Source: Aromatoleum evansii
Lineage (GTDB): Bacteria; Pseudomonadota; Gammaproteobacteria; Burkholderiales; Rhodocyclaceae
Reading direction: 5' to 3'
Assembly (NCBI RefSeq): GCF_012910805.1
Contig: NZ_WTVK01000042.1
Location: 1-47,841 of the forward strand
Length of the DNA stretch: 47,841 nt
Positions 2-47,609 of the stretch are shown here, in pieces. Position 1 is the stretch's first letter, and each line of letters opens with the position of its first letter. The notes beneath the pieces are model-generated. The model saw only the letters and a list, made by a program, of their open reading frames with translations. It searched no databases and was not told the origin of the DNA. Made by a program: the position numbers and the translations under genes.

Positions 2-2395
2 GGTTCGGGGGCGGGCTCGCTCGTCGCCTACAGTCTGCGCATCACCGACCTCGATCCGCTCGCCTACGCACTGCTGTTCGAGCGCTTCCTGAACCCCGAG
101 CGGGTGTCGATGCCCGACTTCGACATCGACTTCTGCCAGGACAACCGCTACCGCGTGATCGAGTATGTGCGCGAGCGCTACGGCAAGGATGCGGTCAGCC
201 AGATCGCGACCTTCGGCACCATGGCGTCCAAGGCGGTGGTGCGCGACGTCGGCCGCGTGCTCGACCTGCCCTACGGCCTGTGCGACCGGCTCTCCAAGCT
301 GATCCCGATCGAAGGCGCCAAACCCGTCTCGCTGGCGAAGGCCTATGAGATGGAGCCGCAGATCGGCGAGATGATGAAGGACGGCAACGACGGCGAGTCG
401 GTGCAGGAGCTGTGGAGCCTCGCCGAGCCGCTGGAGGGATTGAGCCGCAACGTCGGCATGCACGCTGGCGGCGTGCTCATCGCGCCGGGCAAGCTCACCG
501 ACTTCTGCCCGCTCTACATCGCCGACGGTGACGACGCGACGCCGGTGTCACAGTTCGACAAGGACGATGTCGAGGCGGTGGGCCTGGTGAAGTTCGACTT
601 CCTTGGCCTGCGCAACCTCACCATCATCGAGCTCGCGGTCGAGTACGTCGAGCGCCTCACCGGCGAGAAGCCCAACCTCGCCGCGCTGCCTTTCACCGAC
701 CCCGCCGCCTACCAGATCCTGAAGGACGCGAATACCACCGCGATCTTCCAGGTCGAATCGGACGGCATGAAGAAGCTCCTCAAGAAGCTCGCCCCCGACC
801 GCTTCGAGGACATCATTGCGGTGCTCGCGCTCTACCGCCCGGGCCCGCTCGGCTCGGGCATGGTGGACGACTTCATCCTGCGCAAGAAGGGGCAGCAGGA
901 GATCGACTACTTCCATCCGGATCTCAAGCCCTGCCTGGAGCCGACCTACGGCGTGATCGTGTATCAGGAACAGGTGATGCAGATCTCGCAGATCATCGGC
1001 GGCTATACGCTGGGCGGCGCCGACATGCTGCGCCGCGCGATGGGCAAGAAGAAGCCGGAGGAGATGGCCAAGCACCGCGAGACGATCGCCGCCGGTGCGA
1101 AGCAGAAGGGTTACGATCCGGCGCTCGCGGAGCAGCTCTTCGACCTGATGACGAAGTTCGCGGAGTACGGCTTCAACAAGTCGCACACTGCCGCCTACGC
1201 CGTGGTCACCTACCATACCGCGTGGCTCAAGGCGCACCACTGCGCGGCCTTCATGGCGGCGACGATGTCGGCGGACCTCGACAACACCGACACGATCAAG
1301 ATCTTCTTCGAGGACACGATCGCGAACGGGATCACTGTCCTGCCGCCCGACGTGAACCAGTCTGACTACCGTTTTGTTCCCACGGATCGCAAGACGATCC
1401 GCTACGGTCTTGGTGCGGTGAAGGGTGTGGGCGAGCCGGCGGTGCGCTCCATCCTCGAGGCACGCAAGAACGGCGGCGCGTACAAGGATCTGTTCGATTT
1501 CTGCACGCGCGTGGACCGACGCATGGTCAACCGGCGCGTGATCGAGGCGCTGATCCGTTCGGGTGCCTTCGACACCATCGAGCCCAGCGGCACGGCAGAC
1601 CGTGCGCGCCTGCTCGCGACCGTCGCGCTGGCGATGGAGGCGGCCGAGCAGGCCGCCGCGAATGCGATGCAGGGAGGCCTGTTCGATCTCGTCCCGGAGG
1701 CCGCCGGTGCCGCGCCCCAGTATGCGAACGTGAGGCCGTGGACGGAGCGCGAGCGGCTGAAGGAAGAGAAGACCGCGATCGGCTTCTTCCTTTCGGGCCA
1801 TCCGTTCAACAGCTTCCGCGACGAGGTGCGACGTTTCATCCGGCGGCCGCTGTCGCAGCTCGAGCCGTCGCGCGATCTTGCGTTGCTGGCGGGGGTGGTG
1901 ATGGATGTGCGCACCAAGATGACCAACCGCGGCAAGATGGCCTTCGTCGTGCTCGACGACGGTTCCCAGGTGCGCGAGGTTTCGGTTTTTTCCGAAGCGT
2001 TCGACTCGAACCGGACCAAGATCGTCACCGATGAGGTGTTGGTGGTCGAAGGCAAGGTCAGCAACGACGACTTCACCGGCGGGCTGCGCATCGTCGCCGA
2101 CAAGTTGCTGTCGCTCGGTGAGGCACGTTCCCGCTTTGCCAAGGCTCTCCAGATCAGCGTCAATGGCGAAGTGAAGGGTGCGGGTGGCGCCGCAGCGGCG
2201 GCGGACAAGCTCGAAGCGCTGCTCTCGCCATTTCGCGACGGCGGCTGCCCGGTTTCGCTGCGCTATCGCAACGAACAGGCGGAGGCCGAGCTGCCCTTCG
2301 GCGCGGCCTGGCGCGTGCGTATCGACGATGCGCTCCTCGACAGTCTGCGGGAGTGGTTGCCGCACGAATCGGTCGAGGTCGTCTATCCGAATTGA
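2..2395 (+). CDS. dnaE: DNA polymerase III subunit alpha, 5'-truncated by window edge
   Basis: This is the catalytic subunit of the replicative DNA polymerase III, acting at the chromosomal fork. The frame is open from base 2, so the gene begins upstream of the window; 797 residues remain of a family that is usually about 1150-1180 long, so roughly the first third is missing. The visible part opens with the palm motif PDFDIDF, which carries two of the three catalytic aspartates of C-family polymerases. The fingers and helix-hairpin-helix region follow, then a C-terminal OB-fold region (around LAGVVMDVRTKMTNRGKMAF). An internal GTG at 104 and ATG at 110 are only chance starts, because the upstream codons continue the conserved protein (GSGAGSLVAYSLR). 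It is convergent with the peroxiredoxin gene and shares a bidirectional terminator with it. Confidence 0.97.
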   Translation, partial: GSGAGSLVAYSLRITDLDPLAYALLFERFLNPERVSMPDFDIDFCQDNRYRVIEYVRERYGKDAVSQIATFGTMASKAVVRDVGRVLDLPYGLCDRLSKLIPIEGAKPVSLAKAYEMEPQIGEMMKDGNDGESVQELWSLAEPLEGLSRNVGMHAGGVLIAPGKLTDFCPLYIADGDDATPVSQFDKDDVEAVGLVKFDFLGLRNLTIIELAVEYVERLTGEKPNLAALPFTDPAAYQILKDANTTAIFQVESDGMKKLLKKLAPDRFEDIIAVLALYRPGPLGSGMVDDFILRKKGQQEIDYFHPDLKPCLEPTYGVIVYQEQVMQISQIIGGYTLGGADMLRRAMGKKKPEEMAKHRETIAAGAKQKGYDPALAEQLFDLMTKFAEYGFNKSHTAAYAVVTYHTAWLKAHHCAAFMAATMSADLDNTDTIKIFFEDTIANGITVLPPDVNQSDYRFVPTDRKTIRYGLGAVKGVGEPAVRSILEARKNGGAYKDLFDFCTRVDRRMVNRRVIEALIRSGAFDTIEPSGTADRARLLATVALAMEAAEQAAANAMQGGLFDLVPEAAGAAPQYANVRPWTERERLKEEKTAIGFFLSGHPFNSFRDEVRRFIRRPLSQLEPSRDLALLAGVVMDVRTKMTNRGKMAFVVLDDGSQVREVSVFSEAFDSNRTKIVTDEVLVVEGKVSNDDFTGGLRIVADKLLSLGEARSRFAKALQISVNGEVKGAGGAAAAADKLEALLSPFRDGGCPVSLRYRNEQAEAELPFGAAWRVRIDDALLDSLREWLPHESVEVVYPN

Positions 2396-2407
2396 TGCGG
2401 ACGCAAA

Positions 2408-2438
2408 AAAGGCCGCGGCCCGTGAGGGCGCGGCCTTT
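2408..2438. terminator. bidirectional rho-independent terminator
   Basis: A perfect 10-bp inverted repeat (AAAGGCCGCG at 2408-2417 and CGCGGCCTTT at 2429-2438) encloses an 11-nt loop. It has an A-run on one side and T residues on the other. It lies between the convergent dnaE and peroxiredoxin genes and can serve both. Confidence 0.85.
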
Positions 2439-2460
2439 CGGCTGATCCGGCTGCGAGCGC

Positions 2461-3060
2461 TCAGAGTTCCTTGGCGTGCTCGGCGAGGTACTCGGCGACA
2501 CCGGCGGTGCTGGCCTTCATGCCGGCCTTGCCCTTGTTCCAGCCGGCCGGGCAGACTTCGCCGTGCTCTTCGGTGAATTGCAGCGCATCGACCATGCGGA
2601 TCATCTCGTCGATGTTGCGGCCCAGCGGCAGGTCGTTCACGACCTGGTGGCGCACGACGCCGTTCTTGTCGATCAGGAAGGAGCCACGGAAGGCGACGCC
2701 GCCTTCGGCTTCGACGTCATAGGCGCGGCAGATCTCGTGCTTGATGTCGGCGACGAGCGTGTACTGGACCTGGCCGATGCCGCCGTTGTTGACCGGCGTG
2801 TTCTTCCACGCGAGGTGGGTGAACTGGCTGTCGATCGAAACGCCCAGCACTTCGACGCCGCGCTTGGTGAATTCTTCCAGGCGGTGATCGAAGGCGATCA
2901 GCTCGGACGGGCACACGAAGGTGAAGTCCAGCGGGTAGAAGAACACCACGGCGTACTTGCCCTTGGTGACTTCCGAGAACGTGATGTTCTTGATTTCGTT
3001 GTTGCCGAGAACCGCAGTGGCGGTGAAATCCGGGGCCTTCTTGCCGACGAGGACTGCCAT
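2461..3060 (-). CDS. 2-Cys peroxiredoxin (AhpC/TSA, Prx1 type)
   Basis: Cytosolic thiol peroxidase that reduces hydrogen peroxide and organic peroxides. The 199-residue protein has the peroxidatic cysteine Cys50 in FTFVCPSE and the resolving cysteine Cys170 in GEVCPAGW, so it is a typical 2-Cys enzyme. The GG(I/L)G motif of oxidation-sensitive peroxiredoxins is present (NNGGIGQ), but the C-terminal YF motif is not seen. I chose the start MAVLVGKK at 3060 because GGAG lies about 9 nt upstream and the family starts here; a longer frame to 3126 adds unconserved residues. No reductase partner such as AhpF is adjacent, so the electron donor is probably thioredoxin or supplied from elsewhere. Confidence 0.95.
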   Translation of the reverse strand: MAVLVGKKAPDFTATAVLGNNEIKNITFSEVTKGKYAVVFFYPLDFTFVCPSELIAFDHRLEEFTKRGVEVLGVSIDSQFTHLAWKNTPVNNGGIGQVQYTLVADIKHEICRAYDVEAEGGVAFRGSFLIDKNGVVRHQVVNDLPLGRNIDEMIRMVDALQFTEEHGEVCPAGWNKGKAGMKASTAGVAEYLAEHAKEL

Positions 3061-3214
3061 GTTAGTCGTCTCCAGAGTGGGTTGAATGACCGGAGGATTA
3101 TGTTGCCATGATTTGGAAAGATCCAATTGCCTTTTGCACAGGTGGTCGATAGAAGTTTTCTATCGCGAGCTTCCGGGGAATTGGTGCGATTTTTTCCCTG
3201 ATTTCGATCATTGT

Positions 3215-13508: not shown

Positions 13509-13674
13509 GCTCGGGATGTCCTGAATGATGGCAGTCGTGCAAGGCGCGGATTTTACCCCGCCGTGCGCAGCGGAATGACCCTTTTGCGTCCGAGGGTGAG
13601 CGCCGGCGCCGCCTTCGGTATGATGCAGTTCTTATCGCCCCGCATGCGGGCCCCTGATCCCGAGGAAGCCAGTC

Positions 13675-31171: not shown

Positions 31172-31234
31172 GGTTCCGATGCGGCCGCTGCTGCCGCGTT
31201 GGGGTGGTAGCCGCGGGAATGTCGGGAGTGCCGA

Positions 31235-31272
31235 AAGCAAATGGGCCACCTCGAGAGGTGGCCCATTTGCTT
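31235..31272. terminator. strong bidirectional terminator
   Basis: An 18-bp perfect inverted repeat (arms 31235-31252 and 31255-31272) has runs of T/A at both ends (TTTGCTT on either strand). It lies between the Lon-like gene and the 3' end of the tRNA remnant, which is read toward it. Confidence 0.8.
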
Positions 31273-31280
31273 GGCTTTAC

Positions 31281-31331
31281 TGGCTCCCCGACCTGGGCTC
31301 GAACCAGGGACACACGGATTAACAGTCCGTG
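31281..31331 (-). tRNA. 3' part of tRNA-Asn(GUU); 5' half missing, island attachment site
   Basis: Read on the minus strand, this contains an intact anticodon arm (stem ACGGA/TCCGT, loop CTGTTAA, anticodon GTT at 31321-31323), variable loop, T-arm (GGTTCGAGCC core), the acceptor 3' strand TCGGGGA, discriminator G and CCA (31281-31283). The expected 5' half (acceptor TCCCCGA and a normal D-arm) is absent: the sequence to the right cannot pair with the acceptor strand. It is therefore a fragment left where an element integrated into the gene, with the crossover in or next to the anticodon arm. A functional copy should exist at the far end of the island. Confidence 0.75.
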
Positions 31332-32011: not shown

Positions 32012-33307
32012 CTACTCGGCCACTGCTGCGAGTCGGTGCAAGGAGTCGATAGCCTCAAGTCCGGGTAGGGACTCTTGTGCGATCGCCTGCAACTCACCGA
32101 TAACCGCGGACATCGAGGTGGCCACCCGAACTAACTCAGCGTCTCGCTTCGACCAAATTTTCTGAATGGCGCGTTTCTCAGCTTCGAGGTCCATCCTCAT
32201 GCGTGAGAAAGAGTCCATCGTTGCGGCCACTTGCTGAACAAACCGCGGACTCGCCAAGTACTGGAAGAGCAACTCCACCCTTTCCCCCCGACATGTGTTC
32301 ATCTGCGCCACGCGACTGACCTCCAGAAGGATCACTCGTAGGGTCTCGGCGAGGGGCAGTACAAGATGAGGAGGTGTGATCCACACCTCGCTTACCCGGC
32401 CGAAGGGCTGTTCAAGTCCTCGCGGCATCGTCGTCGTCACAAGCACGGAAATCTCCGCTCCAGTCTGCTTTCGATCGTCCTTGAGCTTCTGCAACCACTT
32501 CTCCGACCAGTTTCCTGCGCGCTTCGCTTCCCAGACGATCCGCCCGCACTCGCGGCCAGAGGGTGTTCGCACCGTCTGCAGAACGTCGGCACCTCGCTGT
32601 CCTTTCTTCACTCCCGCGACAGAGTCGTGTGGAAAGGCCCCCGCCAACACATCTTCGAGCTCCAGCTCCAATACCTCGCCCTGAAGTTGCTGAGACCCTT
32701 GCTCAAGCTTGCGCCGCAAATCTTCGTTCGCGCGCTGTGCGTCCTCGATCTTCTTCTTGTACTCACCCTCAATCATCGCGATGCGCTGTGCCTGCCTCTG
32801 CCCAATCTCTTCGCGGATACGGGCGCGCTCGAGATCAAGTTTTCGGTTCAGCTCAAGTGCTAGCGCCTCTCGAGCGTCCTCTAGCTGTTTGCGTTCTTGC
32901 CGAAGCGAAAGCTCTTGCGCGCGGAACTCCTTTAGCTTCTCGTCTTTTGCAGCCAACTCACGGGTAAGCAGGAGCCTTTCCGTATCAAAGTCAGCAAGAG
33001 CTCTTGCCTTTCCCTCCTCGTGGGCTTCAGCCACCCGTCGCCGCGCCGCTTCTTCCGACCGTTGTGCTGCGAGCAACTGGTCTGAGATAGTCTTGAGCTG
33101 TTTGTCATACGTGAGCTTTGCTCTCCTGTCAGCTTCCTTGAACAGGGATTTCTCAAGCTCTTGGCGACGCAAACCCAATGCCGCATCAAATTCCGCTGCG
33201 TAGCGCTCGATGGTTTGACGGGTAATGCCGAGCTCCAAGGGATAGTGGTGCCCACACTTTGGGCAAACAATCTCCTCGCTCGCGGCGATGATTATATTGT
33301 CAGGCAT
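32012..33307 (-). CDS. DUF2130-family protein with zinc ribbon, coiled coil and PD-(D/E)xK-like core
   Basis: A 431-residue soluble protein. A CPKCGHHY half zinc-ribbon lies at 15-22, and a long coiled coil rich in Glu/Arg/Lys/Gln covers about 35-215. A compact domain follows in which Asp241 (GADVLQ) and Glu260-x-Lys262 (IVWEAKRAG) give the D...ExK pattern of restriction-endonuclease-like folds, and a helical tail ends the protein. This order is what I know as DUF2130. Function is not established; nuclease activity is an inference from the motif. Such proteins are often found on islands. Confidence 0.82.
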   Translation of the reverse strand: MPDNIIIAASEEIVCPKCGHHYPLELGITRQTIERYAAEFDAALGLRRQELEKSLFKEADRRAKLTYDKQLKTISDQLLAAQRSEEAARRRVAEAHEEGKARALADFDTERLLLTRELAAKDEKLKEFRAQELSLRQERKQLEDAREALALELNRKLDLERARIREEIGQRQAQRIAMIEGEYKKKIEDAQRANEDLRRKLEQGSQQLQGEVLELELEDVLAGAFPHDSVAGVKKGQRGADVLQTVRTPSGRECGRIVWEAKRAGNWSEKWLQKLKDDRKQTGAEISVLVTTTMPRGLEQPFGRVSEVWITPPHLVLPLAETLRVILLEVSRVAQMNTCRGERVELLFQYLASPRFVQQVAATMDSFSRMRMDLEAEKRAIQKIWSKRDAELVRVATSMSAVIGELQAIAQESLPGLEAIDSLHRLAAVAE

Positions 33308-36057: not shown

Positions 36058-36330
36058 CTAAGCCTCCAATATCTTAAGCTGAGTGCACGCCGCGACATTA
36101 ATCTCGACGAACGCATTCCAATTGATTAGGCTCTGATACTTCGCTCGAAACTGCTCTTCAATTCGACATACGTCGGGGCGTGCGTCGTAAATCGAACACA
36201 AATTGGTTGACTCATCGAGGTGACGGCAAACGCCATCACCTCGATCAAGATGGAGCGTTTCCTCCGCAAGTCTGATGTGCCTGCAGCAAGCGCCGCAGGC
36301 GTCACAAGGGAATGCTGGAAGGGTCTTCAC
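36058..36330 (-). CDS. YkgJ-type cysteine-cluster protein
   Basis: A 90-residue protein of the zinc/iron-chelating YkgJ type. It has CDACGACC (Cys9, 12, 15, 16) followed by further cysteines at about 35, 45, 55 and 82 (CRHLD, NLCSIY, DVCRIEEQF), the expected metal-cluster pattern. The start is GTG at 36330 and overlaps the TGA of the upstream gene (GTGA), so translation is coupled. It is the last gene of the four-gene TerB operon. Family members are thought to bind a metal cluster; their biochemical role is poorly known. Confidence 0.8.
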   Translation of the reverse strand: MKTLPAFPCDACGACCRHIRLAEETLHLDRGDGVCRHLDESTNLCSIYDARPDVCRIEEQFRAKYQSLINWNAFVEINVAACTQLKILEA

Positions 36331-37784
36331 AATATGAACGACTGATCATCGTCGGCCATAAAGGCGTCGAACTCGGTGAGTGATTTGAACGGGAGAGATG
36401 CGCCGAAGGCGTTGTTCACTAGCTCCAGCTTGGCAGTAAATCCGTCTGCATCCCATTCGATCATGCTGCTTTCCAAACCATCAAAAGCCGTGGTGAGTAG
36501 TTGGTGACGCTCAGCGAAATGCTCACACATCAACGCTTCGAGTTCCAGACGGTGGGCCCGCATAAGCGGAATTGCGGTCATGCAGAGAGATTCAACGTGT
36601 TCTCGTCTTTCTCTAGCAGCTTTAACTGAGACTGATTCGCCGAGGCTGATCAAAGCAGACTGGTGCAGCATGTTGCCTACGAAGTAGCCGAAGGTCGAAC
36701 CCACAAACGCACCAACGATTGGGATGGGGATGATGGCTTGTCCGAGCGCGCCGTAATAGAAAGCACTGGCGCCGGTGATGGCTGTGTGACTGACCTCAGA
36801 TGAAAGTTGCTCGCCGTTAATCTCACCCCGCAAGTAGCGAACGATAGACTTGCCACTTTGCACAACGCCGGCAGCGATCGCTACATGAGCATTGCTCCTG
36901 GTGAGAAGGGTGGTGGCGCTTTGAGATGCGCCTCCTTGGATTAGCAGATGTGGAACCCCCTTGCTGATAGCTGTTGTCGCGTAGCTGCTTGCGTAACCTT
37001 TGGCCGCATCAACAGCAACTTGCGCCACCACTTCGCCTGGATTCGCCTCGCCGCGACTGAGTCGAAGCAATCCGCCAACAGTGGAAACGCCGCCCGCAAC
37101 GATCGCCCCTGTCTTACCTGCTTCCAAGCCGGATCTGTGCATTTCCGCCTTGATCGTTTGGCGCTCAAATCCATTTGCCATTTTGTCGGCAACTTGGCGG
37201 TTCGTCGCGCTCAAGGCCTCCGCATGGGTAGTATCGCCAGAGGCAACTCCGTCAAGGGAGAGTTCGCGTCGCAGGTTCTTCAGTGTGTCCTCATACTGAG
37301 CTTGCTTGAGCGAGCCCGATCTGACGCGCTTTTCGAGCAGGGACTTGATCTTCTCGTATTGTTCCGAGGGGGCGAGCCGGCCCATCCCTCGATACTTGCT
37401 TTCGTCGAGCTTATCCGTGAGGGAGGTAAGGCTAGCAACAGGGTTATCACAAGACTTTGCTTGAAAGGGAATTTTCTTCCGGGCCTGCTGAATGTATATG
37501 TCGACGGGGTCGGTTGGCCTGCCGACAGAGTCTGTCGTGAATGCGCGGACATCCAACCGCCCCTTTTGCAGAGCATCGAGGTTGAATTTGACGACAAATA
37601 TCTGTTCGAACGAGCGGCCTTGCGCTATTTCGGGAGCCACATTCTTCCATTTCTCCGCGAGGTGGCGCAGGCGATCGGCATCCCCCAATAAACGGGTCGA
37701 CGCCTCGGTGATTCGCGCGGTTTGCTGATCGGCGATTAGTGCCGCAGCCTGGGACTCGAGATCGTCTTGTGTTTTATCTTTCAT
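36327..37784 (-). CDS. restriction-endonuclease-like/membrane fusion protein, unknown function
   Basis: A 485-residue protein from MKDKTQDDLE. An N-terminal soluble domain contains Glu60 (RSFEQIF), Asp95 (DPVDIYIQ) and Gln108-Ala-Lys110 (PFQAKS). This is the E...D...QxK pattern of Mrr-type PD-(D/E)xK nuclease folds. A charged helical region follows, then Gly/Ala-rich hydrophobic segments (about 225-250 and 335-378, including IIPIPIVGAFVGSTFGYFVG) that could insert in membrane. The C-terminus is helical and acidic. No family was recognised as a whole. ATG 37784 lacks a good ribosome site; ATG 37814 is the alternative (495 residues). It is the third gene of the operon and overlaps the YkgJ-type gene. 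Confidence 0.65.
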   Translation of the reverse strand: MKDKTQDDLESQAAALIADQQTARITEASTRLLGDADRLRHLAEKWKNVAPEIAQGRSFEQIFVVKFNLDALQKGRLDVRAFTTDSVGRPTDPVDIYIQQARKKIPFQAKSCDNPVASLTSLTDKLDESKYRGMGRLAPSEQYEKIKSLLEKRVRSGSLKQAQYEDTLKNLRRELSLDGVASGDTTHAEALSATNRQVADKMANGFERQTIKAEMHRSGLEAGKTGAIVAGGVSTVGGLLRLSRGEANPGEVVAQVAVDAAKGYASSYATTAISKGVPHLLIQGGASQSATTLLTRSNAHVAIAAGVVQSGKSIVRYLRGEINGEQLSSEVSHTAITGASAFYYGALGQAIIPIPIVGAFVGSTFGYFVGNMLHQSALISLGESVSVKAARERREHVESLCMTAIPLMRAHRLELEALMCEHFAERHQLLTTAFDGLESSMIEWDADGFTAKLELVNNAFGASLPFKSLTEFDAFMADDDQSFIL

Positions 37785-37834
37785 CGGAAGGATTGCCCGG
37801 GGACGCGGCTCCATCGCCCGGGCTGCATTCGTGT

Positions 37835-38836
37835 TCAGCCTAGCTCAACAAGCTTCTCTCTAGCTTCGGTCAATACTTGCCTCGATGCTGAAGTCAAGGC
37901 CCCGTTTTGGTCGAGTAGCGGCGCCTCCATTACATTTTTCAATGTCTTTGCCATGGCAGCGGCCATCATCACTCCCTTCCGATCTTCAAGAGAGTAACTG
38001 CTGTAATCGGTGTTGGCAGCGACAAGCCGCGTCAGGCCGTCGAGCAGAGGTTGAAAATGCTTGTCCAGCCGGTGAAGTGCGTCGTGAATCTCGGAAAAGC
38101 GATCGCGAATTCCACGTGTGACCGTTTCGGCTGTTCGCATTTGCTCGGCAGCGGCACGTGCCTTGTCTCGATTTGCGTATGCGTTGTGCCGAGCCTCTTC
38201 CGCCTTGGAGGCAAGCATCATGCCGCCAATCGCGAGAACGGGTCCCGCAACAATGCCACCCAGAACAGCCGTTCCGCCAGCTACGCCAAAGCCGCCAGCG
38301 CTGAGCGCCCCCCCTCCCAACCATGCGAGGGTGGCATTGGTTGCGGCAACGCCGCCGAGACCCGAGATCGCTGCGCCAGTTGAAGCGGTGCCAAGTAGCC
38401 CAACCCCACCGTAGGCAGCTAAACCAGCGAGACCACCAGCCCCCAAGGCAGTTACGCCGCCGCCGACGACATCCTGCATGCTCAGGGCCGATCGTTGGAC
38501 GGCCAGCATGTCTTCCTTGCTCAGCCCACCGAGATTAAATTCGTCTTTGAGGTTCCGGTCTTGAAAATCAACATTCTTGATTTTCGAGAATGCTTTGACA
38601 AAGGGGATCAGGCGATGTTCGTAAATGTCAAATTTCAGCTGGCCAAGACGGTTCATTGACGACTGGGCCGCATCTCGCGAGACTTCCAACCTGTTACAAG
38701 CCTCGTCGTAGATTTCCTTCGCTTCGGCGTTCAGTTCTTTGGCGCGATTGAAGTCTTCCTTCGCATCGAGGCCCTTCTTTACGCCAAACCCACCGGCCAA
38801 GACGGCGGCACCGACTAGCAATAAGGGAAGTGGCAT
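37835..38836 (-). CDS. glycine-zipper membrane protein with flanking helical domains
   Basis: A 333-residue protein. An N-terminal hydrophobic helix (3-18) and a coiled-coil-like segment (about 25-115) precede a continuous Gly/Ala-rich hydrophobic block of about 85 residues (124-208; VGGGVTALGAGGLAGLAAYG and GGALSAGGFGVAGGTA), then a second charged helical domain. Dense small-residue hydrophobic stretches of this type pack as glycine zippers in membranes and occur in pore-forming or membrane-remodelling proteins. It begins 2 nt after the TerB-like stop with AGGGAC as ribosome site, and the next gene follows after 50 nt. Function unknown. Confidence 0.68.
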   Translation of the reverse strand: MPLPLLLVGAAVLAGGFGVKKGLDAKEDFNRAKELNAEAKEIYDEACNRLEVSRDAAQSSMNRLGQLKFDIYEHRLIPFVKAFSKIKNVDFQDRNLKDEFNLGGLSKEDMLAVQRSALSMQDVVGGGVTALGAGGLAGLAAYGGVGLLGTASTGAAISGLGGVAATNATLAWLGGGALSAGGFGVAGGTAVLGGIVAGPVLAIGGMMLASKAEEARHNAYANRDKARAAAEQMRTAETVTRGIRDRFSEIHDALHRLDKHFQPLLDGLTRLVAANTDYSSYSLEDRKGVMMAAAMAKTLKNVMEAPLLDQNGALTSASRQVLTEAREKLVELG

Positions 38837-38838
38837 GA

Positions 38839-39222
38839 TTAGTCCCTCATGAATTCTTCAGCCTCGCGCGCCAGTGAAAGCTGGCGGACAACCCAAGCTT
38901 CCATATCTGCGAGGAGTTCCTGGTTAATCCCGACCTTGTCGGCCACCGTCAGAACGAAGTCTCTTTCTCGACTGTGGTACTTTTCGTCGGCATATGCGAG
39001 ACCAAGCAGTTCGAGCATGAATGCAGCCTTACTGGCCGAGGTAGGGAAGTCCGCGCTTAGATCCGAGCTGCTATGCGGTGTGATCGACGATGCCATCTGC
39101 GCCCTGAAGGACGCTAGCAATTCCTCTTCTCGGGCATCAACTTTTCCGTCTGCGGAGATAAGCTTCTCACAGTAGTACAGGAAGATACCCTGCTGTTTTT
39201 CGTCCAGTCGCGACAAGAACAT
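38839..39222 (-). CDS. TerB-like protein
   Basis: A 127-residue helical, acidic protein with the two-part TerB pattern: EKLISADGKVDAREEELL near the N-terminus and LLGLAYADEKYHSRERDFVL further on. TerB-fold proteins bind metal and act with membrane-associated stress or defence complexes. GGAG lies about 6 nt before ATG 39222. It is the promoter-proximal gene of the four-gene operon, and a 513-nt untranslated stretch lies upstream. It is not accompanied by TerC, TerD or TerE, so a classical tellurite cluster is unlikely. Confidence 0.75.
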   Translation of the reverse strand: MFLSRLDEKQQGIFLYYCEKLISADGKVDAREEELLASFRAQMASSITPHSSSDLSADFPTSASKAAFMLELLGLAYADEKYHSRERDFVLTVADKVGINQELLADMEAWVVRQLSLAREAEEFMRD

Positions 39223-39735: not shown

Positions 39736-40170
39736 ATGAGTACCACCGCCTCGGTAACGGTGATCACGTCACAGCCTCCACATATGCCGACTGCCTCCCT
39801 CGAAGACATCTGCGGCTGCACCGCTGCCATCTTCTGGTGTCTGCGGACGTTGAAGCCGGGGTTGAGCGTGTTTGACCATCCGTATGACATCTTCGCGAAG
39901 GACGTGGCGGCCGACGACGAGTATGCGGCGGACCTCGTCGAACTCTACAAGGGGATTGTCCTCGACCAAATCTATCAGGAGCGGCGTGCCGCGATGGCCG
40001 ATCGGGTGGTGGCGCGGATTGGAGCCGCGCTTGCGGCCCGTCATGATCCCGCGACGGATGCGGCATTGCGGCAACCGATCGACGTGGAACGGTTGCCGCG
40101 GTTTCCCGATATTCCGGCTTGGCGAGTAAACGAGACGCGCCCGGCGTTGCCGTGGCCGATCGATTTCTGA
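39736..40170 (+). CDS. uncharacterised island protein
   Basis: A 144-residue protein that I do not recognise. It is Thr/Ser-rich at the N-terminus and acidic in the middle (FAKDVAADDEYAADLVELYK), and ends with a Pro-rich tail (PALPWPIDF). GGAG lies 8-9 nt before the ATG. It is transcribed toward the polymerase gene and separated from that gene's stop by two perfect hairpins. Confidence 0.58.
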   Translation: MSTTASVTVITSQPPHMPTASLEDICGCTAAIFWCLRTLKPGLSVFDHPYDIFAKDVAADDEYAADLVELYKGIVLDQIYQERRAAMADRVVARIGAALAARHDPATDAALRQPIDVERLPRFPDIPAWRVNETRPALPWPIDF

Positions 40171-40257: not shown

Positions 40258-43200
40258 TTAGGCGCCCGCTGAAATCGCGCCGCTGAGGAAGCGTTCCACC
40301 TCAAGACCAGGGAAGCGCTGTTTGACGACGGCGAGGAATGCCTGGACGTCAGGGATGGGCGGCAGGACATACTCGTGCAGGTGGGAACGACCGGCGTTCT
40401 TCACATCGTGGAGCTTCGTCGGGAAGCCCATCTGCGTGAGCCATTCGGCGAGCTTCGCCTGCGAAAGATCCACATTTTCCAGTCCCCAAGCTCGCTGAAC
40501 GTAGGCCGCCAGGAACAGACGGCGCGCGATTCCGACCTCTGACGTCTTCTCGGTCGCGTACAGCATTCCCGTTTTTCCCCGTGATGCAGGACTGCCGCCA
40601 TTGCCGTTGTCGGATGTCTCGGATTGCTCGAAGTCATCATGTTCCCTTCGCACTTCGTGGCGCCGCCTGCGCTCGCGGTTCCCGGCACGGAGCGTGTAAA
40701 AGGCCTGCCAGGCGTTCCAGTCCTCAAGGGTCTTCAGGCAATTCCCCGGACGGATGACCTCACCGTCCTTGCCTGCCCGCCCCCTCCGCCATTCGTCGAA
40801 GACAACGCGCGCCAGCTCGCCTTCCTCGACGGTGTCCCAAGGTACCGTGTCACACGCGAGATGCTCTATCCCGGTCGACTCGATTCGGACCATGCGCGGA
40901 TTAACGAGACAGCGCTTATGGTCATATTCAAGATTGAGTCGCACCACGGAATTGACGGTCTGCAAGTCCCAGTCCTTGATCAACATGTCGCGCATTGACA
41001 TCAGGGACGGTCGAACGATGGTCTGGTGGGGGACCCGGTTGGAAAACAGATCGAGCATGTAGGCGTTTTGTCCCGCGGGCGACATGAGCCACTTCTCGCG
41101 TTCCTCGTCGCCCTCCGCAAGGTCCAGTGGAATCTTTACACCGCCCTTCGCAACAACAGGATCTTCGCCGTTTATCGCTAGGCCGGTGAGTTGGAGGCGC
41201 GTCTTGCCAGCTACCGCTTGAGCGATGACGTGCTTGACCTCCGTCATGCTTGTGCCCGGCGCGACCCTGTCCACGAGCGCCTGGAAATGCCGGCACATCG
41301 TTCCAGACAGATCCAGCTGATCCGTATTCACGAGCAGGCCATCGGTCGTCGCCGAGACAAGCAGCGCGTCGGCGGGGAGCTTCCACAGGATCTCGCTGAG
41401 GACGGCACGGGCAAAACCGGACACCAGCGCGGCGATGGCCGGTTCAGTGATCCTCGACAGGCCGATGGGCACGGACGCGAGCGTCTCTGGGGAGAAGCCG
41501 TTCCGTCCCTTGCAACCTTGTCCCGTCTTCCCGTACCCACCGTTTCCGACCAATTTCATAAATTCATGGGGTAGGGACTTCCTGGCGAACTCGAGGCGCA
41601 TCAGCCGAGTGTAGATGGACGACGACTCGAAGGGACGGTAGCCAGCATCTCCGCGATCAGGGGGCGGGAATTGCATCTGCGGGCTTAGCACGCATGCCTC
41701 CCCACCCCCTGCCGGATCAATGTTCGACGCCTTCTCGTGCTTATTGCGCCTCTGCCGCCGGCCCAGCCGAGCCGCACTGTCCGCAAAGACCTTGGCGCGA
41801 TCCTTCCATGGGATGACGATGCCGAAGCGAACATCGAGCTTCGCTCCCATCTCGTGGGCCAGTTCGATCTCGGGTGCGGTGGCGAGGGACACCCCCTTTC
41901 GGGGGAACCAAAGGCCATACTTTTCCATCACCACGGGCAAGCAAGGACGAGCAATCTCCGGGGGGAACTCAAACGTGACCTCCGCGTATCCGGCCACATG
42001 CCCGCAAAGTTGGGAGACGTCGCGGACAATCTCGATCCGCTCGTAGTCCAGGGCCATCGGGCCAACGAGGCTCATTACGTAACACGCCGCCAGATCGTGG
42101 TCGTAAAACGGCTGTGCTCCGGCCGGGCGGGGGGTCGGGCCGAACCAGTACGCCTCGTTTCGACCGCCTAGGTACGCATCGGACAGGAGTGCCTCGAACC
42201 ATCGGCGCAGCCGGCTTGGGACCCGCCGCTTCCTGCTGATCGGCCGACCACTGCCCTCATCCCAATGCCAGTCGCGCATGTACTCATAGTTCAGCGCGAC
42301 GTCAGGATGTACGCCATCGCGCAGCATACACTGCTCGATGAGGCGTACAGAGATCCCGCTGGCGGTTGCACTTAGCCCCTTCAGACCGAGATACCGTTCG
42401 CAGAACCAAAGCACCCACAGCACGTACATGACTGCGATCTCCGCGTCGCGCAAGCCATACGCGCGGAAGAACTCGGGCTGCTCGCGCTGCAGGCGGCGCA
42501 TGTCCTTCTTTGCGTAGCCGGCCGGGAGCGTCAGCTTGGGGATCCCGAGCCAGTCACCAAGCGTGGTGACAGATTTCCCGGGTGGAGCAAGACGCGAAGC
42601 GTCGATGATGCGCACCGATAAGAGCCGCGGATCGAATGGGTCATTCAGCGCGTAGGCGTAGCGCGCCTTCAAGCGGAGGGCCCGCGATTCGCTCATCGGA
42701 AGATTGAACTGCGCAGGATCGCCAACAGTCGCAAGCGTGCCATTGATCCCCCGCAGTTGGCCGCGAAATTCCTTGAAGTCGCGGAATACGGTGATGTCGG
42801 CAAGCGTGAAGAAGCCGCACAGGATGACTTCGCTCGGCCACTCCTCGAAGACGTCGGCGTCTTCCGCCTCCTCAAGCAGATCGCACAGCGTCTCACGCAG
42901 GGCGGGGCGCGACTCGATGACCTCGCCTCCCACGATGTCAATGACCTTCGAAAGGACCTCGCCATTGGGCCCGACAAGATGGAACTGGACGGAGAGAATC
43001 TCGTTCCTACCCTCCCTGGCCTCATTCCATTCGGCATCGAAACCGATGAAGACCGGGGCACCAGGGCCAGGGCGAAGCGCGGCGCCTACGTTGCCGGGCA
43101 CGACCTGCAACGGCGACGGATCGCTAGCGAGTTCAGCGAGAAAGGCATCGCGCGCGTCGAGTTCCTGGGCGCTCGGGCCAGCAATGGGCAGTTCTGGCGG

Positions 43201-43458
43201 CAGCATGCGTGCCATCTCGGGTTCGGGCTGGGGGCCGGCGACGCCTTGTGGGACGGGTCTCACTCGCGCTTGCGCCATGAGCGGCTCGAAGAGACGATCG
43301 AGATGCACCAGCAACTGGGAGAAATCCGGTAGCCGTGATCGCTTGACCGCGAGCTTGGTGCGTGTCGCCGCATCGTCGAACAAGACATCGACCGCGGTGT
43401 CATCGGCAGCGGCAGGCGAGTTCCCCGGCATCGAGGAAGTGTCGGTGTCAATTGGCAT
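40258..43458 (-). CDS. B-family DNA polymerase of a mobile element (pipolin-like)
   Basis: A 1066-residue protein with the hallmarks of family B polymerases. Numbered from MPIDTD: exonuclease Exo I Asp141-Ala-Glu143 (FIGFDAEWN), Exo III Tyr334-xxx-Asp338 (FRAYGLRDAE), palm motif A Asp455 (DLAACY), motif B KLVGNGGYG (Lys635, Asn639, Tyr642) and motif C TTDG with Asp706, where canonical enzymes have DTD. The first ~130 residues are Pro/Ala-rich and may be a separate domain. Self-replicating pipolins encode such polymerases with a tyrosine recombinase and integrate at tRNA genes, which fits this island. Start at 43458 follows a GGGGG site; an open frame to 43614 crosses a terminator and was rejected. 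Pipolin membership, and primer-independent synthesis, are inferences. Confidence 0.85.
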   Translation of the reverse strand: MPIDTDTSSMPGNSPAAADDTAVDVLFDDAATRTKLAVKRSRLPDFSQLLVHLDRLFEPLMAQARVRPVPQGVAGPQPEPEMARMLPPELPIAGPSAQELDARDAFLAELASDPSPLQVVPGNVGAALRPGPGAPVFIGFDAEWNEAREGRNEILSVQFHLVGPNGEVLSKVIDIVGGEVIESRPALRETLCDLLEEAEDADVFEEWPSEVILCGFFTLADITVFRDFKEFRGQLRGINGTLATVGDPAQFNLPMSESRALRLKARYAYALNDPFDPRLLSVRIIDASRLAPPGKSVTTLGDWLGIPKLTLPAGYAKKDMRRLQREQPEFFRAYGLRDAEIAVMYVLWVLWFCERYLGLKGLSATASGISVRLIEQCMLRDGVHPDVALNYEYMRDWHWDEGSGRPISRKRRVPSRLRRWFEALLSDAYLGGRNEAYWFGPTPRPAGAQPFYDHDLAACYVMSLVGPMALDYERIEIVRDVSQLCGHVAGYAEVTFEFPPEIARPCLPVVMEKYGLWFPRKGVSLATAPEIELAHEMGAKLDVRFGIVIPWKDRAKVFADSAARLGRRQRRNKHEKASNIDPAGGGEACVLSPQMQFPPPDRGDAGYRPFESSSIYTRLMRLEFARKSLPHEFMKLVGNGGYGKTGQGCKGRNGFSPETLASVPIGLSRITEPAIAALVSGFARAVLSEILWKLPADALLVSATTDGLLVNTDQLDLSGTMCRHFQALVDRVAPGTSMTEVKHVIAQAVAGKTRLQLTGLAINGEDPVVAKGGVKIPLDLAEGDEEREKWLMSPAGQNAYMLDLFSNRVPHQTIVRPSLMSMRDMLIKDWDLQTVNSVVRLNLEYDHKRCLVNPRMVRIESTGIEHLACDTVPWDTVEEGELARVVFDEWRRGRAGKDGEVIRPGNCLKTLEDWNAWQAFYTLRAGNRERRRRHEVRREHDDFEQSETSDNGNGGSPASRGKTGMLYATEKTSEVGIARRLFLAAYVQRAWGLENVDLSQAKLAEWLTQMGFPTKLHDVKNAGRSHLHEYVLPPIPDVQAFLAVVKQRFPGLEVERFLSGAISAGA

Positions 43459-43550
43459 ACTTATGTAACCCCCGTGGACAGATTGACACCAGTCGAAGGT
43501 GCGAGAGGTCGAAGCGACCCACGAAATCCTCAGGCACCCAGGACAGGTAA

Positions 43551-43585
43551 CAAAAATAAAGCCGCGAGCCAGCACGGCTAGCGGC
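43551..43585 (-). terminator. rho-independent terminator upstream of the polymerase gene
   Basis: Arms GCCGC-AGCC and GGCT-GCGGC (one mismatch) are followed on the minus strand by TTTATTTTTG. It ends the transcript of the recombinase/acidic/87-residue genes, so the polymerase gene needs its own promoter. Confidence 0.75.
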
Positions 43586-43641
43586 TCAACTACAGCGGTG
43601 CCTATTAGCACCACCGACCTGTACGACTTCAGTAGATGTGG

Positions 43642-43905
43642 TCAGGCAGCGCGTCGATCGCTATCTTCGGCGAGTTCGAGCATCGACCAATCGATCTTGG
43701 AACGGCCCCGCGTATTGATGAACCCGGTCAGCATTTCGACGACGAGAACGCCTACCGTCTCATTTCCGATTGGGATCCACGCGATCATCCGCCCACGCAG
43801 ATCGTAGATAGCGACACCGTTGGGGAATACCTGCATTCGACCGACGCTGCCGCGAGCGATCGAAGTCTTCCCGTCAGGGGTGGTAAAAGTATCGTTGAAG
43901 GCCAT
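43642..43905 (-). CDS. uncharacterised small protein of the polymerase element
   Basis: An 87-residue protein that I do not recognise. It has a beta-rich N-terminal half (TPDGKTSIARGSVGRMQVFP, then GVAIYDLRGRMIAWIPIG), a hydrophobic strand/helix (VGVLVVEMLTGFI) and a short acidic tail. The start MAFNDTFT at 43905 has GGAG 9 nt upstream. It lies between the 44-residue acidic gene and the terminator that precedes the polymerase gene. Confidence 0.6.
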   Translation of the reverse strand: MAFNDTFTTPDGKTSIARGSVGRMQVFPNGVAIYDLRGRMIAWIPIGNETVGVLVVEMLTGFINTRGRSKIDWSMLELAEDSDRRAA

Positions 43906-44051
43906 AGCTATCAGCTCCATTGGTTAAAATGGCCGTGCATCACAGTGGGGGCGCGTCGATCTCTGCCGGCAAGCGTTTCGACGCTGCCACCCACACCAAG
44001 TACAGCAAGCCTGTTCCGGGGAGAATCCCTCTTTGGGCTTGATTGCCGAAG

Positions 44052-44186
44052 TCAGAACTCCTCCTCTCGATCGTCATCGAAGCAGCCACGGTTGGGCGTT
44101 TCCCATTCTTCGTCGACAAGATCACCCTCGTAGAACGCACCACCAATCTCGTAGTCGCGTTCGTCGTAGTACAAGTCACCACTCAT
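44052..44186 (-). CDS. 44-residue highly acidic protein
   Basis: A short frame beginning MSGDLYYDERDYEIGG and ending DDDREEEF. About 17 of 44 residues are Asp or Glu and only three are basic. GAGGAG lies at ideal distance (about 7 nt) upstream of ATG 44186, and the frame starts 15 nt after the recombinase stop, so it is almost certainly translated with it. No domain is recognised. The charge would suit a DNA-mimic or inhibitor; excisionases, in contrast, are usually basic. The longer frame on the same strand (43940-44182) lacks a ribosome site and was rejected in its favour. Confidence 0.7.
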   Translation of the reverse strand: MSGDLYYDERDYEIGGAFYEGDLVDEEWETPNRGCFDDDREEEF

Positions 44187-44201
44187 GATTCACTCCTCGT
44201 G

Positions 44202-45539
44202 TTAGGCCGCTTCTCGCGGCAGTTCGTCGAAAATCTCGCGCAGGTCGCCGCCATTGCCCGGCCGGGTGGATGGCTGCGACTGAGGGCTCGAGATATGCAA
44301 TTCGGGAGATCCGTTGCGGGCCCCATCTAGGCCGAGCCCGGCGTAGATGGTCCGACTAGCCTGGTTTGCTGCCTGGCGCAGGCGGTCGTTGTCCGCGATG
44401 AGGTAATGCGTCTCGGTCACCGAGGTGCGCGAATGCCTCAGCAGTCTGCTGACGTCGAGCACCGAGACGCCTTGAGCCTGTATGCCGGCTGTTGCGAAGC
44501 CGCGGCGCAGATCGTGCAGGGAAAGGCCGCTGATGCCAGCATGCTTCTGCAGAGCCTGGAATGCGCGGTGCGGGTGCGACATCGGGCGCAGGCCGTCGCG
44601 CGAGGGGAAGAGGAAGTCGCTGCTGTGGCGGTAAGCCTTCCTGCGATCGACAATTCTCATTGCCTCAGGCGAGAGGGGGATGGATTGCGGTACGCCGCTT
44701 TTCGTCACGGGAAGACTGAGGACGCCGCGTGCCTCATCAACGTCACTAAACTTGGCGCGACGCGCCTCGCCGGAGCGCAGGCCCGTGACCATCAGGAATT
44801 GGACGAAATCGATGGTTTGCGATGGGGGCATCGCCGCCATTGCTGCGCCGAGACGTGCAAGCTGGTCGGGCGACGCGAGCGTTGTACGTGCGCGAACCAC
44901 GTTCGCAATTCGGAGGCTTGACGCCGGGTTGGTCGTGAGCAGGTTCAGGTCGACCAGGTCACGGCAAATTGCGCGCAGGAGAGCGACGCATCGGTCGGCA
45001 GTAGCAGGCGTCAATGACACACGTAGGTCGCGGGCAATTCGTTCCAGAACGCCGCGGTTCAACTGTCCAAGCGAAAGATCGCCGAGCCGCCCCTTGAGGT
45101 GGTTTCGGTAACGGCTTACGTCGTCCCGTAGCGAGCGTTTTCCGCGAGCGATCGCAGCCGTGAAAACCTGTTCGACGGCCGCATCGAATTTCATCTGGCG
45201 GGAGCGCGGGCTTCGACCTTCCGTGACGTCGGCCTGGAGTTGCAAGTGGGCGGCGATTGCCGCCGACATGGTAGTGGCGCCGAACCTGCCGAGAACAACG
45301 CAGGTCCATTTACCCGTGAGCGGATTGCGATAGTCCGAGCGCCAAGCCAATGCGCCGGTCCTATAGCCGAGCAGGTAGAGATCGGGAATCCCCGGCACGG
45401 GAACTTGGATTTGTTTCGGCGGCGGCACGGCCGACGGAGATTCGAGATAACGATCCCAAGCGTCGAGATAGGCACTGACGCCTTCACGTGCGAAGGCCGG
45501 AAGCTCCTTCAGGCGGATCTGTGGATCCCGGCGTTTCAA
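44202..45539 (-). CDS. tyrosine recombinase/integrase
   Basis: A site-specific recombinase of 445 residues. An N-terminal arm and core-binding region (about 115-210) precede the catalytic domain with Arg255 (VTGLRSGEA), Lys280 (VTKSGVP), His342-xx-Arg345 (LHDLRRGFAT), His369 (LLRHSRTS) and nucleophile Tyr379 (ETHYL). All catalytic residues are present, so the enzyme should be active. The C-terminal ~60 residues are a Ser/Pro/Gly-rich tail. The start is TTG at 45539 after GGGGTGG; a later start is possible. It heads a unit with the acidic and 87-residue genes, next to the polymerase gene. It is the best candidate for the integrase that used the tRNA-Asn site, although it lies about 13 kb from it. 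Confidence 0.92.
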   Translation of the reverse strand: MKRRDPQIRLKELPAFAREGVSAYLDAWDRYLESPSAVPPPKQIQVPVPGIPDLYLLGYRTGALAWRSDYRNPLTGKWTCVVLGRFGATTMSAAIAAHLQLQADVTEGRSPRSRQMKFDAAVEQVFTAAIARGKRSLRDDVSRYRNHLKGRLGDLSLGQLNRGVLERIARDLRVSLTPATADRCVALLRAICRDLVDLNLLTTNPASSLRIANVVRARTTLASPDQLARLGAAMAAMPPSQTIDFVQFLMVTGLRSGEARRAKFSDVDEARGVLSLPVTKSGVPQSIPLSPEAMRIVDRRKAYRHSSDFLFPSRDGLRPMSHPHRAFQALQKHAGISGLSLHDLRRGFATAGIQAQGVSVLDVSRLLRHSRTSVTETHYLIADNDRLRQAANQASRTIYAGLGLDGARNGSPELHISSPQSQPSTRPGNGGDLREIFDELPREAA

Positions 45540-46007
45540 GCCACCACCCCGCTGTGCGGACGACCGGCCCCCGTCGCACTGTCGGTGGCCCCGGACTTGG
45601 AGTCCATCGAGCCCGCGACGGCCGACGACAAGGGGCGGACGAGAGCGTGCCCCGATGTGAGAGGGTTATTTTGTTGGTCAGTACACGTCATGCAGACCAT
45701 ACGAGTCAGCTCCTATATATGAATAATGTCTTCTGTTTTTGCACTGTTTGTGCGGCGCCGATTTGCAACGCCGAGTGGAGCATAGAAGGGCATGAATCGC
45801 GATACAAGTCCCTGCGAAAGGCGCTGTAAGTGCGCGAAAAATAAAGAGAAAAGTGCATTTCTACTGGGGTCCTGGGGGGGCGACTGACATCCCTTGAGGA
45901 TAAGTAATTGTGCTGACGGGATTCTTGGGCGTCGCTCGGCACACAAGAGAAAAAATACTTGTCCGCGAGGGACGACAACCGTCCATGCGAATGCGAGAAT
46001 AATCAGC
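45540..46007. promoter_or_regulatory. 468-nt divergent intergenic region
   Basis: No credible gene is seen. It lies between the divergent recombinase and AT-hook genes and contains AT-rich patches (45706-45740, about 45833-45860, 45945-45960) suitable for promoters or a replication origin. No second copy of the tRNA-Asn sequence is found here. Confidence 0.35.
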
Positions 46008-47609
46008 ATGAAACCTGGCCAAAATGACCGATCCCACCGTCTGCACATTGACGGGGAAGAGAGCATCGACGACCGTCTGTCGAAGCGTTCGCGATGGAAC
46101 AGTGAAGAGCGTCGCGCCCGCGAAGCATGGCTCCGGGTGCAGTTGGACCCGAGCGCGACCGGGAGCGGTGCGGGAGGCCTGGCGGGAGAGTCGTCGCGGG
46201 TGATAGCCAGGCACCTAGGCGAGCAGTTCGGCCGGGAGATCAGCGAGCGATCAGCTCGACGTTATGTCCAGGAGGCGCAGGTCGGATACACGAACGAACT
46301 GCGCGTTCATCGGGGCGGGCGACCGAAGAAGGCTGTAGAGTCGGGCGCTGATCCCGGGGCAGCGAAGCGCGGACGAGGCCGCCCACGGAAGGCAGTTGAT
46401 ACGTCCCACGCGAAGGGATCGAAGCTCGAGAAGGACTGCACGTCGAGGCACGTTCGAGGCGGGGGGACCACTAATGAGCATTCCCAGGACCTGACTGAAC
46501 TGTTCGACCCTCTCTCCGAGCGGGAATTGTTTCTGGGCGTTTGCGCTGATCTTATGCATTTGTGCGGGGTGTCGGCCTCCCATCTCCATCGCCTTTTAAA
46601 GCAGCTTGAGCGGCACTTCCCGACGTTGCACGCCTTGGCTGGTTGCCGATCCGGTTTCCTGAGGGATCTCTCGGCGGCACACGGGCGACCGCGCCGGGTC
46701 TTCTTTCCGATCGGCCCCGGCAGGAAGCTCTTGAATGGCGCGATTAGCCTGCGTCAGATCGTCTTGTTTTCACCACGGGGCTTCCGCGTGGTGGCTCTGG
46801 CGTGTGAATTGCGCACGTTGTTCATCAATGCACACATTTTCGAGGTCTCGGTGCCGGAACAGCTTCGAGCACTTGCGCCCCGGCTTTTCCCTCCACGGCG
46901 AGGAAACCCGGCAGAGGGAGTCGATCGAGGGAAAGTGCGACTGTTGGAGTGCGATGCCGAAACGGGGGAACTCACCGGCCTTCGAGTGGCACTCCCGACC
47001 GGCGCGATCGAGGCGCTAGTTCACGATACATGCGATAGGGTGGGCTTCCCCGTCACAGACGTGATGCTGGGTCCAGATATGAACGTAGGCGCGAACGCTG
47101 AGACCGCATGGAGGCGCTACCTGCGATCGGACGTGCCGCTGCAACAGAATACCTGGCCTCTGCTCGGCGATGACATGCCGACCGATGCGTTCCGCCGGCA
47201 ACTGGCGGGATTGCTGAACGAGCATAACCGTTGGAACGCGCTGGACGAAGTGAAGTGGCGCCGGAGCGCCTCAACCGCGTTAAAGCACGCGGCGGATCGC
47301 AATAATCGACAGGGCCGAGGCGGTCGCAAGCGAGGGAGTGCGACAGCGGCCAGCAGCGGCCAAACGATCCTGGAGATCGAGAAGGCTCACCCTGTAGACC
47401 CCAGGGGGGGAACGCGAGTCAGGTGCGCGGTTTTCTGGGCCGAGGGCTTAGCGACGCGGGACGACACCAGCAACGTCGGCGCACAACGGGTCGAACAAAT
47501 TGATAATCGATATGAGGGAGATTCCGATGAGTGCCCTAACGAATCGTCCTTGCGGCGCGACGGCGATGAGACTGGATTGGTGGGAAAATGCGACAGCCGT
47601 ACCAGGTAA
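46008..47609 (+). CDS. large DNA-binding-like protein with AT-hook motifs
   Basis: A 533-residue protein that I do not recognise as a whole. Residues about 60-95 (SSRVIARHLGEQFGREISER) look like a helix-turn-helix. Two basic AT-hook-like motifs follow at 103-108 (GGRPKK) and 121-128 (RGRGRPRK). A region of about 300 residues of mixed structure (including LFDPLSERELFLGVCADLMH and FSPRGFRVVALACELRTLF) has no clear catalytic motif. ATG 46008 is chosen as the most likely start but its ribosome site is weak; the frame is open upstream to 45894. The last 28 codons overlap the next gene in another frame. Confidence 0.6.
   Translation: MKPGQNDRSHRLHIDGEESIDDRLSKRSRWNSEERRAREAWLRVQLDPSATGSGAGGLAGESSRVIARHLGEQFGREISERSARRYVQEAQVGYTNELRVHRGGRPKKAVESGADPGAAKRGRGRPRKAVDTSHAKGSKLEKDCTSRHVRGGGTTNEHSQDLTELFDPLSERELFLGVCADLMHLCGVSASHLHRLLKQLERHFPTLHALAGCRSGFLRDLSAAHGRPRRVFFPIGPGRKLLNGAISLRQIVLFSPRGFRVVALACELRTLFINAHIFEVSVPEQLRALAPRLFPPRRGNPAEGVDRGKVRLLECDAETGELTGLRVALPTGAIEALVHDTCDRVGFPVTDVMLGPDMNVGANAETAWRRYLRSDVPLQQNTWPLLGDDMPTDAFRRQLAGLLNEHNRWNALDEVKWRRSASTALKHAADRNNRQGRGGRKRGSATAASSGQTILEIEKAHPVDPRGGTRVRCAVFWAEGLATRDDTSNVGAQRVEQIDNRYEGDSDECPNESSLRRDGDETGLVGKCDSRTR

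Follow-up and report, generated by a model that had tools for sequence, protein, structure and literature searches.

A tRNA-Asn-bounded pipolin of a divergent subclade in Aromatoleum evansii, with a cyclic di-GMP riboswitch ahead of its cargo

Pipolins are integrative mobile elements with a primer-independent family-B DNA polymerase (piPolB) as their hallmark. According to the available text of PMC7544198 and PMC7385651, piPolBs begin DNA synthesis without a primer, and the former describes them as lacking the first Asp of motif C. Described systems include the Escherichia coli pipolins at tRNA-Leu (loci L020 and L114 here, the latter being NZ_CP110858.1; PMC7385651, in its available text) and the pipolins of staphylococcal plasmids (pSE-12228-03, NC_005006.1). 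In this work we analysed a stretch of 47,841 bp from Aromatoleum evansii (positions 1-47841 of contig C267 of assembly G000, hereafter the window), in which a family-B polymerase gene and a tyrosine recombinase gene lie side by side in an island at tRNA-Asn. We are highly confident that this element is a pipolin; it is well bounded, belongs to a divergent subclade and has an unusual signalling switch ahead of its cargo. An earlier note on this DNA had proposed a member of the pipolins or a relative of them, and this is borne out by tree placement, by co-occurrence of the recombinase and by the edge of the island.

The polymerase (40258..43614, minus strand) and the recombinase (44202..45539, minus strand, 445 amino acids, aa) are encoded by intact open reading frames (ORFs), which are separated by 588 bp and both read toward lower coordinates. 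The window shares with the E. coli pipolins a piPolB with TTDG, a tRNA-linked insertion, and the order tyrosine recombinase, small ORF(s), polymerase, with the recombinase upstream on the same strand. The polymerases are only 32% identical, however, with KTRG in E. coli but KTRL in the window, and the insertion is at tRNA-Leu there but at tRNA-Asn here; another difference is that no uracil-DNA glycosylase was found among the window island ORFs scanned with Pfam. In NZ_CP110858.1, type I restriction-modification genes lie nearby, whereas the window carries a TerB/PDC-M09 cargo with a riboswitch; in that record the polymerase lies between a “tyrosine-type recombinase” on its upstream side and a “site-specific integrase” on its downstream side, with tRNA-Leu some 7 kb further on. 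The staphylococcal pipolins have a homologous polymerase with TTDG and YGKTGQG, but it is 24-27% identical and resides on a circular plasmid with a relaxase and a “recombinase family protein”. A much closer counterpart is locus L172 (genome G1085, same family), which has the same order and strands of polymerase, small ORF, recombinase and a divergent 532-aa ORF, and whose polymerase is 58% identical over 1094 columns. L172 differs in being an 11.9-kb contig with no tRNA found, in having a second recombinase, in the identity of its recombinase (32.5% over 289) and in carrying its homologue of a 144-aa ORF, described below, on the other side.

The polymerase ORF has 1118 codons from a GTG, and the first ATG, codon 53 at 43458, gives 1066 aa, so the B-family polymerase of 1066 residues with exonuclease and palm that the earlier note described is the protein counted from this ATG. 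It contains the exonuclease motifs (DxE, an ExoII-like stretch and YxxxD), the palm motifs A, B and C, the last as TTDG, and a C-terminal extension; all motifs quoted in the note were found (FDAEW, YGLRDAE, DHDLAACY, KLVGNGGYGK and TTDG). The TTDG fits the piPolB trait of an absent first Asp in motif C (PMC7544198, in its available text). To align the polymerases, we took 92 matched loci, of which the window is one, set aside two copies of the window (L001, L002) and removed 16 sequences shorter than 750 aa (L005-L007, L010, L011, L016, L028, L037, L039, L041, L070, L074, L079, L082, L088, L089), leaving 74 rows including the window. It turned out that the Asp pair of motif A, the K, N and YGK of motif B and the TDG of motif C are kept in all 74 rows, so the motifs are not due to chance. 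The D and E of ExoI are kept in 73 of 74, the remaining row being a gap. Loci fetched later are less uniform in motif B, where L171 has C for Asn and L174 has FGR. In two of the nearest relatives the polymerase frames are broken or short (L011 10001-12883 and L028 9818-11440), which suggests decaying copies.

In both trees that we built, the polymerase groups with piPolBs. The quick 53-row tree with four outgroups places the window and the E. coli enzyme within a 19-row clade (support 100), and splits all piPolB rows from phi29/PRD1 and from Pol II/RB69 at 99. In the careful 38-row tree, with phi29/PRD1 as outgroup, the window joins L172 and L173 (100/99), then a 7-row clade with L011, L016, L028 and L171 (100/100), a 14-row clade (100/99) and a 25-row clade that also holds the E. 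coli enzyme (100/100). A profile of 69 piPolB rows without the window's clade, run on nine test proteins, gave 8.5e-219 for the window and 1.3e-104 for the staphylococcal enzyme, against 9e-16 for PRD1, 0.0022 for phi29, 0.16 for Pol II and 0.21 for RB69; the reversed window protein, run alone against this profile, had no match. Even a profile of 12 enteric and aeromonad rows alone gave 1.9e-174 for the window polymerase. For the published piPolB profile a cutoff of 1e-50 is quoted (PMC9710591, in its available text), which the window score passes, although this score comes from a profile made here, not the published one, and from a small test set. The groupings that the note had named as refuting its reading did not occur: neither the quick tree nor the profile scores put the window with Pol II or the T4-type PolB (RB69 gp43), and the protein-primed phi29 and PRD1, two rows on long branches, stay outside the piPolB rows.

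Used as sole query, the window polymerase found nothing in phages and no relatives in genome or viral contigs; the query that brought out relatives was a four-row alignment (A1). With A1, 98 of 136 pattern matches in genome contigs were relatives, of which 80 were kept; in viral contigs, 1 of 60 pattern matches was a relative. The relatives found in this way span E. coli, Aeromonas, Citrobacter, alphaproteobacteria and Verrucomicrobia. Matches by tblastn to plasmids were exclusively staphylococcal (10 records, for example pSE-12228-03), with 26-27% identity. Matches were also present in 3 of 100 other genomes, while a search of 369 class genomes and 300 order genomes returned the window polymerase and no other. 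For a further alignment, A2, DNA_pol_B_2 was matched by 45 of its 50 rows, and with A2 as a profile no PDB sequence was matched. Of 5426 complete E. coli genomes, 292 carry near copies of the E. coli polymerase used here. Strains 99-3165 and 2014EL-1346-6 are among them, and as these two are named as pipolin carriers in the available text of PMC7385651, this polymerase is a documented pipolin enzyme.

We compared the tRNA-Asn region with related genomes. The distal end is an attachment (att) repeat of 97 bp (31234..31330, minus strand), consisting of the 3' half of tRNA-Asn(GTT), 50 bp (31281-31330), and a terminator. It is 94.8% identical to positions 34965-35061 of contig C278, where two intact tandem tRNA-Asn genes stand; the fragment itself was missed by ARAGORN and by Rfam at gathering score. 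On the chromosome of G009 the C278 flank leads through both tRNA genes into the window flank with its LonB-like gene, and the two matches overlap by exactly the 97 bp; G002 has the same empty-site arrangement, with an overlap of 98 bp. By coordinates, the tandem pair lies directly beside the flank in 8 of 16 same-genus genomes (G001, G002, G003, G005, G009, G012, G015 and G016), which points to an empty site in each of them. The locus thus has a trait of integrated pipolins, namely terminal att-like direct repeats, which often overlap a tRNA gene. From the repeats and the empty-site matches, the island runs from C278:35062 to the contig end, across a gap, and from window position 47841 down to 31331; its part on the window contig is 31331..47841, and the remainder comprises C278 35062-38484 (contig end) and the assembly gap. 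The truncated tRNA gene that the note had placed at the island edge therefore exists, with its matching repeat and empty sites in relatives, but far outside 40258..45539, and in the same way the element reading stands while the element exceeds that interval.

Such tRNA-Asn repeats flank the polymerases of L028 (a tandem tRNA-Asn pair and a fragment at 13556-13605) and of L035 and L042 (each with a complete gene plus a fragment), and a fragment lies beside the polymerase of L011 (19334-19383). The fragments begin at tRNA position 27-31, from which we infer a crossover near the anticodon. Both parts of the island also carry a pipolin-associated small ORF family. Its 144-aa member in the window (39736..40170, plus strand) has homologues in L172 (52%), L174, L170/L011, L175 and contig C278, where the copy is L107:7778-8203 (E 1.7e-5 and 7e-5); in the host family, 4 of 9 pipolin loci have it (L170, L172, L174, L175). 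Near the tRNA-Asn island end on C278 there is also a GIY-YIG/homing-endonuclease-like ORF of 535 aa (L107 5873-7480). The end of the window contig (47774-47841) resembles by eye the start of an IS3-type transposase ORF, which is a likely cause of the assembly gap.

The recombinase is intact, as the earlier note had said, and matches PF00589 (E 1.4e-17) and phrog_1 (E 3e-54); of the RK-HxxR-H-Y set, TGLR, TKSG, HDLRR and H..Y were located by eye. The locus thus holds at least one tyrosine recombinase, as integrated pipolins do. Its closest counterpart among the recombinases found lies in front of the L171 polymerase (43% over 396 residues); that upstream of the L011 polymerase is 29% identical. 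The recombinase tree is weakly resolved, and pairs the window with the L011 upstream recombinase at 84, on long branches. With a hidden Markov model grown from the window recombinase (E 1e-4, more than 150 aa), a recombinase ORF was found in 57 of 80 related loci, so that recombinase and polymerase do co-occur in other genomes. It is located upstream on the same strand and within 2.2 kb of the polymerase in 31 of the 80 loci, or in 29 of the 66 that have at least 2.5 kb of upstream DNA.

Several observations weigh against the pipolin reading. The window polymerase as sole query matches nothing in Pfam, PHROG, NCBIfam or PDB sequences, and the outgroup branches are long in both trees. The [RK]TRG motif preceding the thumb, reportedly discussed for piPolB priming, has its G in 71 of 74 rows, but the window has KTRL; [KR]TRL is shared by the window, L172, L173, L171, L011 and L016, while L028 has RTRG and L174 has RVRA. 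No recombinase ORF was present in the available DNA of 23 of the 80 loci, and the recombinase counts are not independent since many loci are close kin. Of the 53 loci (out of 80) scanned with ARAGORN, 26 gave a tRNA, of various kinds. Because the middle of the island is absent from the assembly, the case for a single unit depends on the att repeats and the small-ORF family shared by both ends.

This last point bears on a composite island, in which an unrelated integrative element would own the tRNA-Asn repeats and the polymerase/recombinase module would be a nested or decaying pipolin inside it. G+C is about 0.61-0.62 in the polymerase region against 0.52-0.57 at 33-40 kb, the apparent transposase start comes after the ORF that ends at 47609, the middle is lost in the gap, and in E. 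coli some pipolins occupy one site together with a prophage (PMC7385651, in its available text). Yet related polymerases lie between or beside tRNA-Asn repeats in the four loci given above, the small-ORF family is present at both island ends, and the polymerase and recombinase ORFs show no damage, and so we consider a composite origin unlikely, though it deserves some weight. A protein-primed element, whose polymerase would use a terminal protein as phi29 and PRD1 do and replicate a linear form, is very improbable. The phi29 DNA polymerase has DTD as motif C and is primed by a terminal protein. Its structure is the nearest solved fold to the predicted polymerase model, over model residues 186-895, and the 50 matches listed by VIA-align are exclusively PolBs, residues 896-1118 being barely probed there; but phi29 polymerase has 572 aa and is without the long C-terminal part, and phi29/PRD1 are separate from all piPolB rows on long branches. 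No terminal-protein gene was recognised among the island ORFs scanned, which is weak evidence as such proteins are hard to recognise, and the tRNA att repeats and the recombinase suggest a circular form. Cas1, the casposon integrase, was not seen among the ORFs scanned with Pfam, a scan that covered part of the ORFs and part of the island. Hardly any weight goes to a host PolB, domesticated or for repair, beside an unrelated integrase: the available text of PMC9710591 mentions damage tolerance as a role of piPolB, but the polymerase has no match in any of 16 same-genus genomes compared, A2 matches 15 of 395 family genomes with the window's included, and the gene sits inside a tRNA island.

If the element is a pipolin, recombination would most likely take place in the 3' half of tRNA-Asn(GTT), carried out by the window's tyrosine recombinase or by another that lies in the assembly gap. 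One end would then keep a complete tRNA gene, and the other the 50-bp tRNA piece with the terminator. After circular excision, the polymerase may initiate synthesis unprimed and replicate the circle, probably proofreading by means of its own 3'-5' exonuclease; both self-copying, as the earlier note proposed, and primer-independent synthesis are carried over here from the relatives. The remaining genes would be cargo, in this case a riboswitch-led TerB/PDC-M09 operon.

The riboswitch is an aptamer of the cyclic di-GMP-I (c-di-GMP-I) class (RF01051; 39406..39491, minus strand; 59.6 bits), the sole one found in the 5.9-Mb assembly, which is located downstream of the polymerase on the same strand and 183 nt ahead of a TerB-domain gene (38839..39222, PF05099 E 2.4e-7). 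This is followed, all on the minus strand, by a PDC-M09A-like gene (37835..38836, E 3.4e-29), a PDC-M09B-like gene (36327..37814, E 6.6e-14), both candidate defence genes in PADLOC, and, as the last of the operon, a small CxxCxxCC zinc/iron-chelating protein (36058..36330, PF03692 E 1.9e-9). A DUF2130 protein (32012..33307, minus strand, PF09903 E 1.1e-54) is also part of the cargo. In L011, an aptamer (59.9 bits) is likewise downstream of the polymerase, followed by a small ORF (by eye) and LeoBC/LeoA (PADLOC 1.9e-136 and 1.1e-159, also candidates for defence). In L175/L179 the aptamer (58.7 bits) is upstream of the polymerase on the other strand, inside a 6.2-kb block (L011 13031-19194, L179 2199-8352, 89.5% identical) that holds a 387-aa ORF, which we take to be Fic-like, the riboswitch, LeoBC and LeoA. 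As the L175 polymerase falls in a different branch from that of L011, this shared block points to a recent cargo exchange between pipolins, and the two riboswitch copies count as one event. Riboswitch-led cargo is therefore of two types across three pipolin loci.

The riboswitch is not general in pipolins. RF01051 matched 12 of the 50 genomes behind the loci, within the pipolin locus in L011 alone, in a survey that covered about 50 of the 80 loci. It was absent on direct scan of L012, L016, L017, L018, L019, L021, L025, L028, L030, L035 and L043, and from the short loci of the PDC-M09A relatives L117 and L118, and for L041 and L069 the coordinates put the genomic matches outside the pipolin loci. 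Across 14 family genomes there are 21 matches, in 9 of the 14 and 0-5 per genome; the aptamer is thus fairly common in the family, which weakens its link with pipolins. Shuffled sequences fold as well as the RNA around the riboswitch does (z -0.14) and a terminator scan between aptamer and first gene reported none, so no expression mechanism is claimed. A literature search, in the text available to it, returned no published link of pipolins to a c-di-GMP riboswitch or of the riboswitch to defence.

The remaining ORFs lie around the recombinase. Between it and the polymerase is a 92-aa ORF (43642..43920, minus strand), which has a homologue at the same place in L172 (43%, E 2e-21); the L011 ORF at this position gives a 30% alignment that is not significant by blastp. 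Beyond the recombinase, there is a divergent 571-aa ORF (45894..47609, plus strand), of which L172 carries a homologue in the equivalent position (25.6% over 532 columns, E 2e-9). Pfam has no family for the 571-aa ORF above cut-off, PHROG and NCBIfam offer nothing better than E 0.1, plasmids gave no match, and its single-sequence model is unusable (predicted local distance difference test, pLDDT, 36). Elsewhere in the host family, L003 and L004 (genomes G028 and G024) form a separate deep piPolB-like pair with KTRG/RTRG and TTDG, and are perhaps plasmid-type pipolins, as a MobA/MobL-relaxase-like ORF (by eye) adjoins the L003 polymerase. Besides, two polymerase copies, 100% identical over 918 residues, lie about 34 kb apart on one 69-kb contig (L013 and L014, JAQTWB010000006.1), and one Methylobacterium contig carries two piPolB loci (L033 and L074, NZ_JAKSXW010000148.1).

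In conclusion, the element offers an intact enzyme of a divergent subclade that is altered at a near-constant motif, and hence a natural variant with which the requirements of de novo priming can be tested. As for its cargo, we put forward tentatively, and with more doubt than confidence, that pipolins of this family place exchangeable membrane-type anti-phage genes behind a c-di-GMP-I riboswitch, TerB/PDC-M09 in the window and LeoBC/LeoA in L011 and L175, so that the c-di-GMP level of the host, and with it the biofilm or motile state, would set the output of defence. With riboswitch-led cargo in hand, second-messenger control of the candidate defence genes of a mobile element becomes testable.

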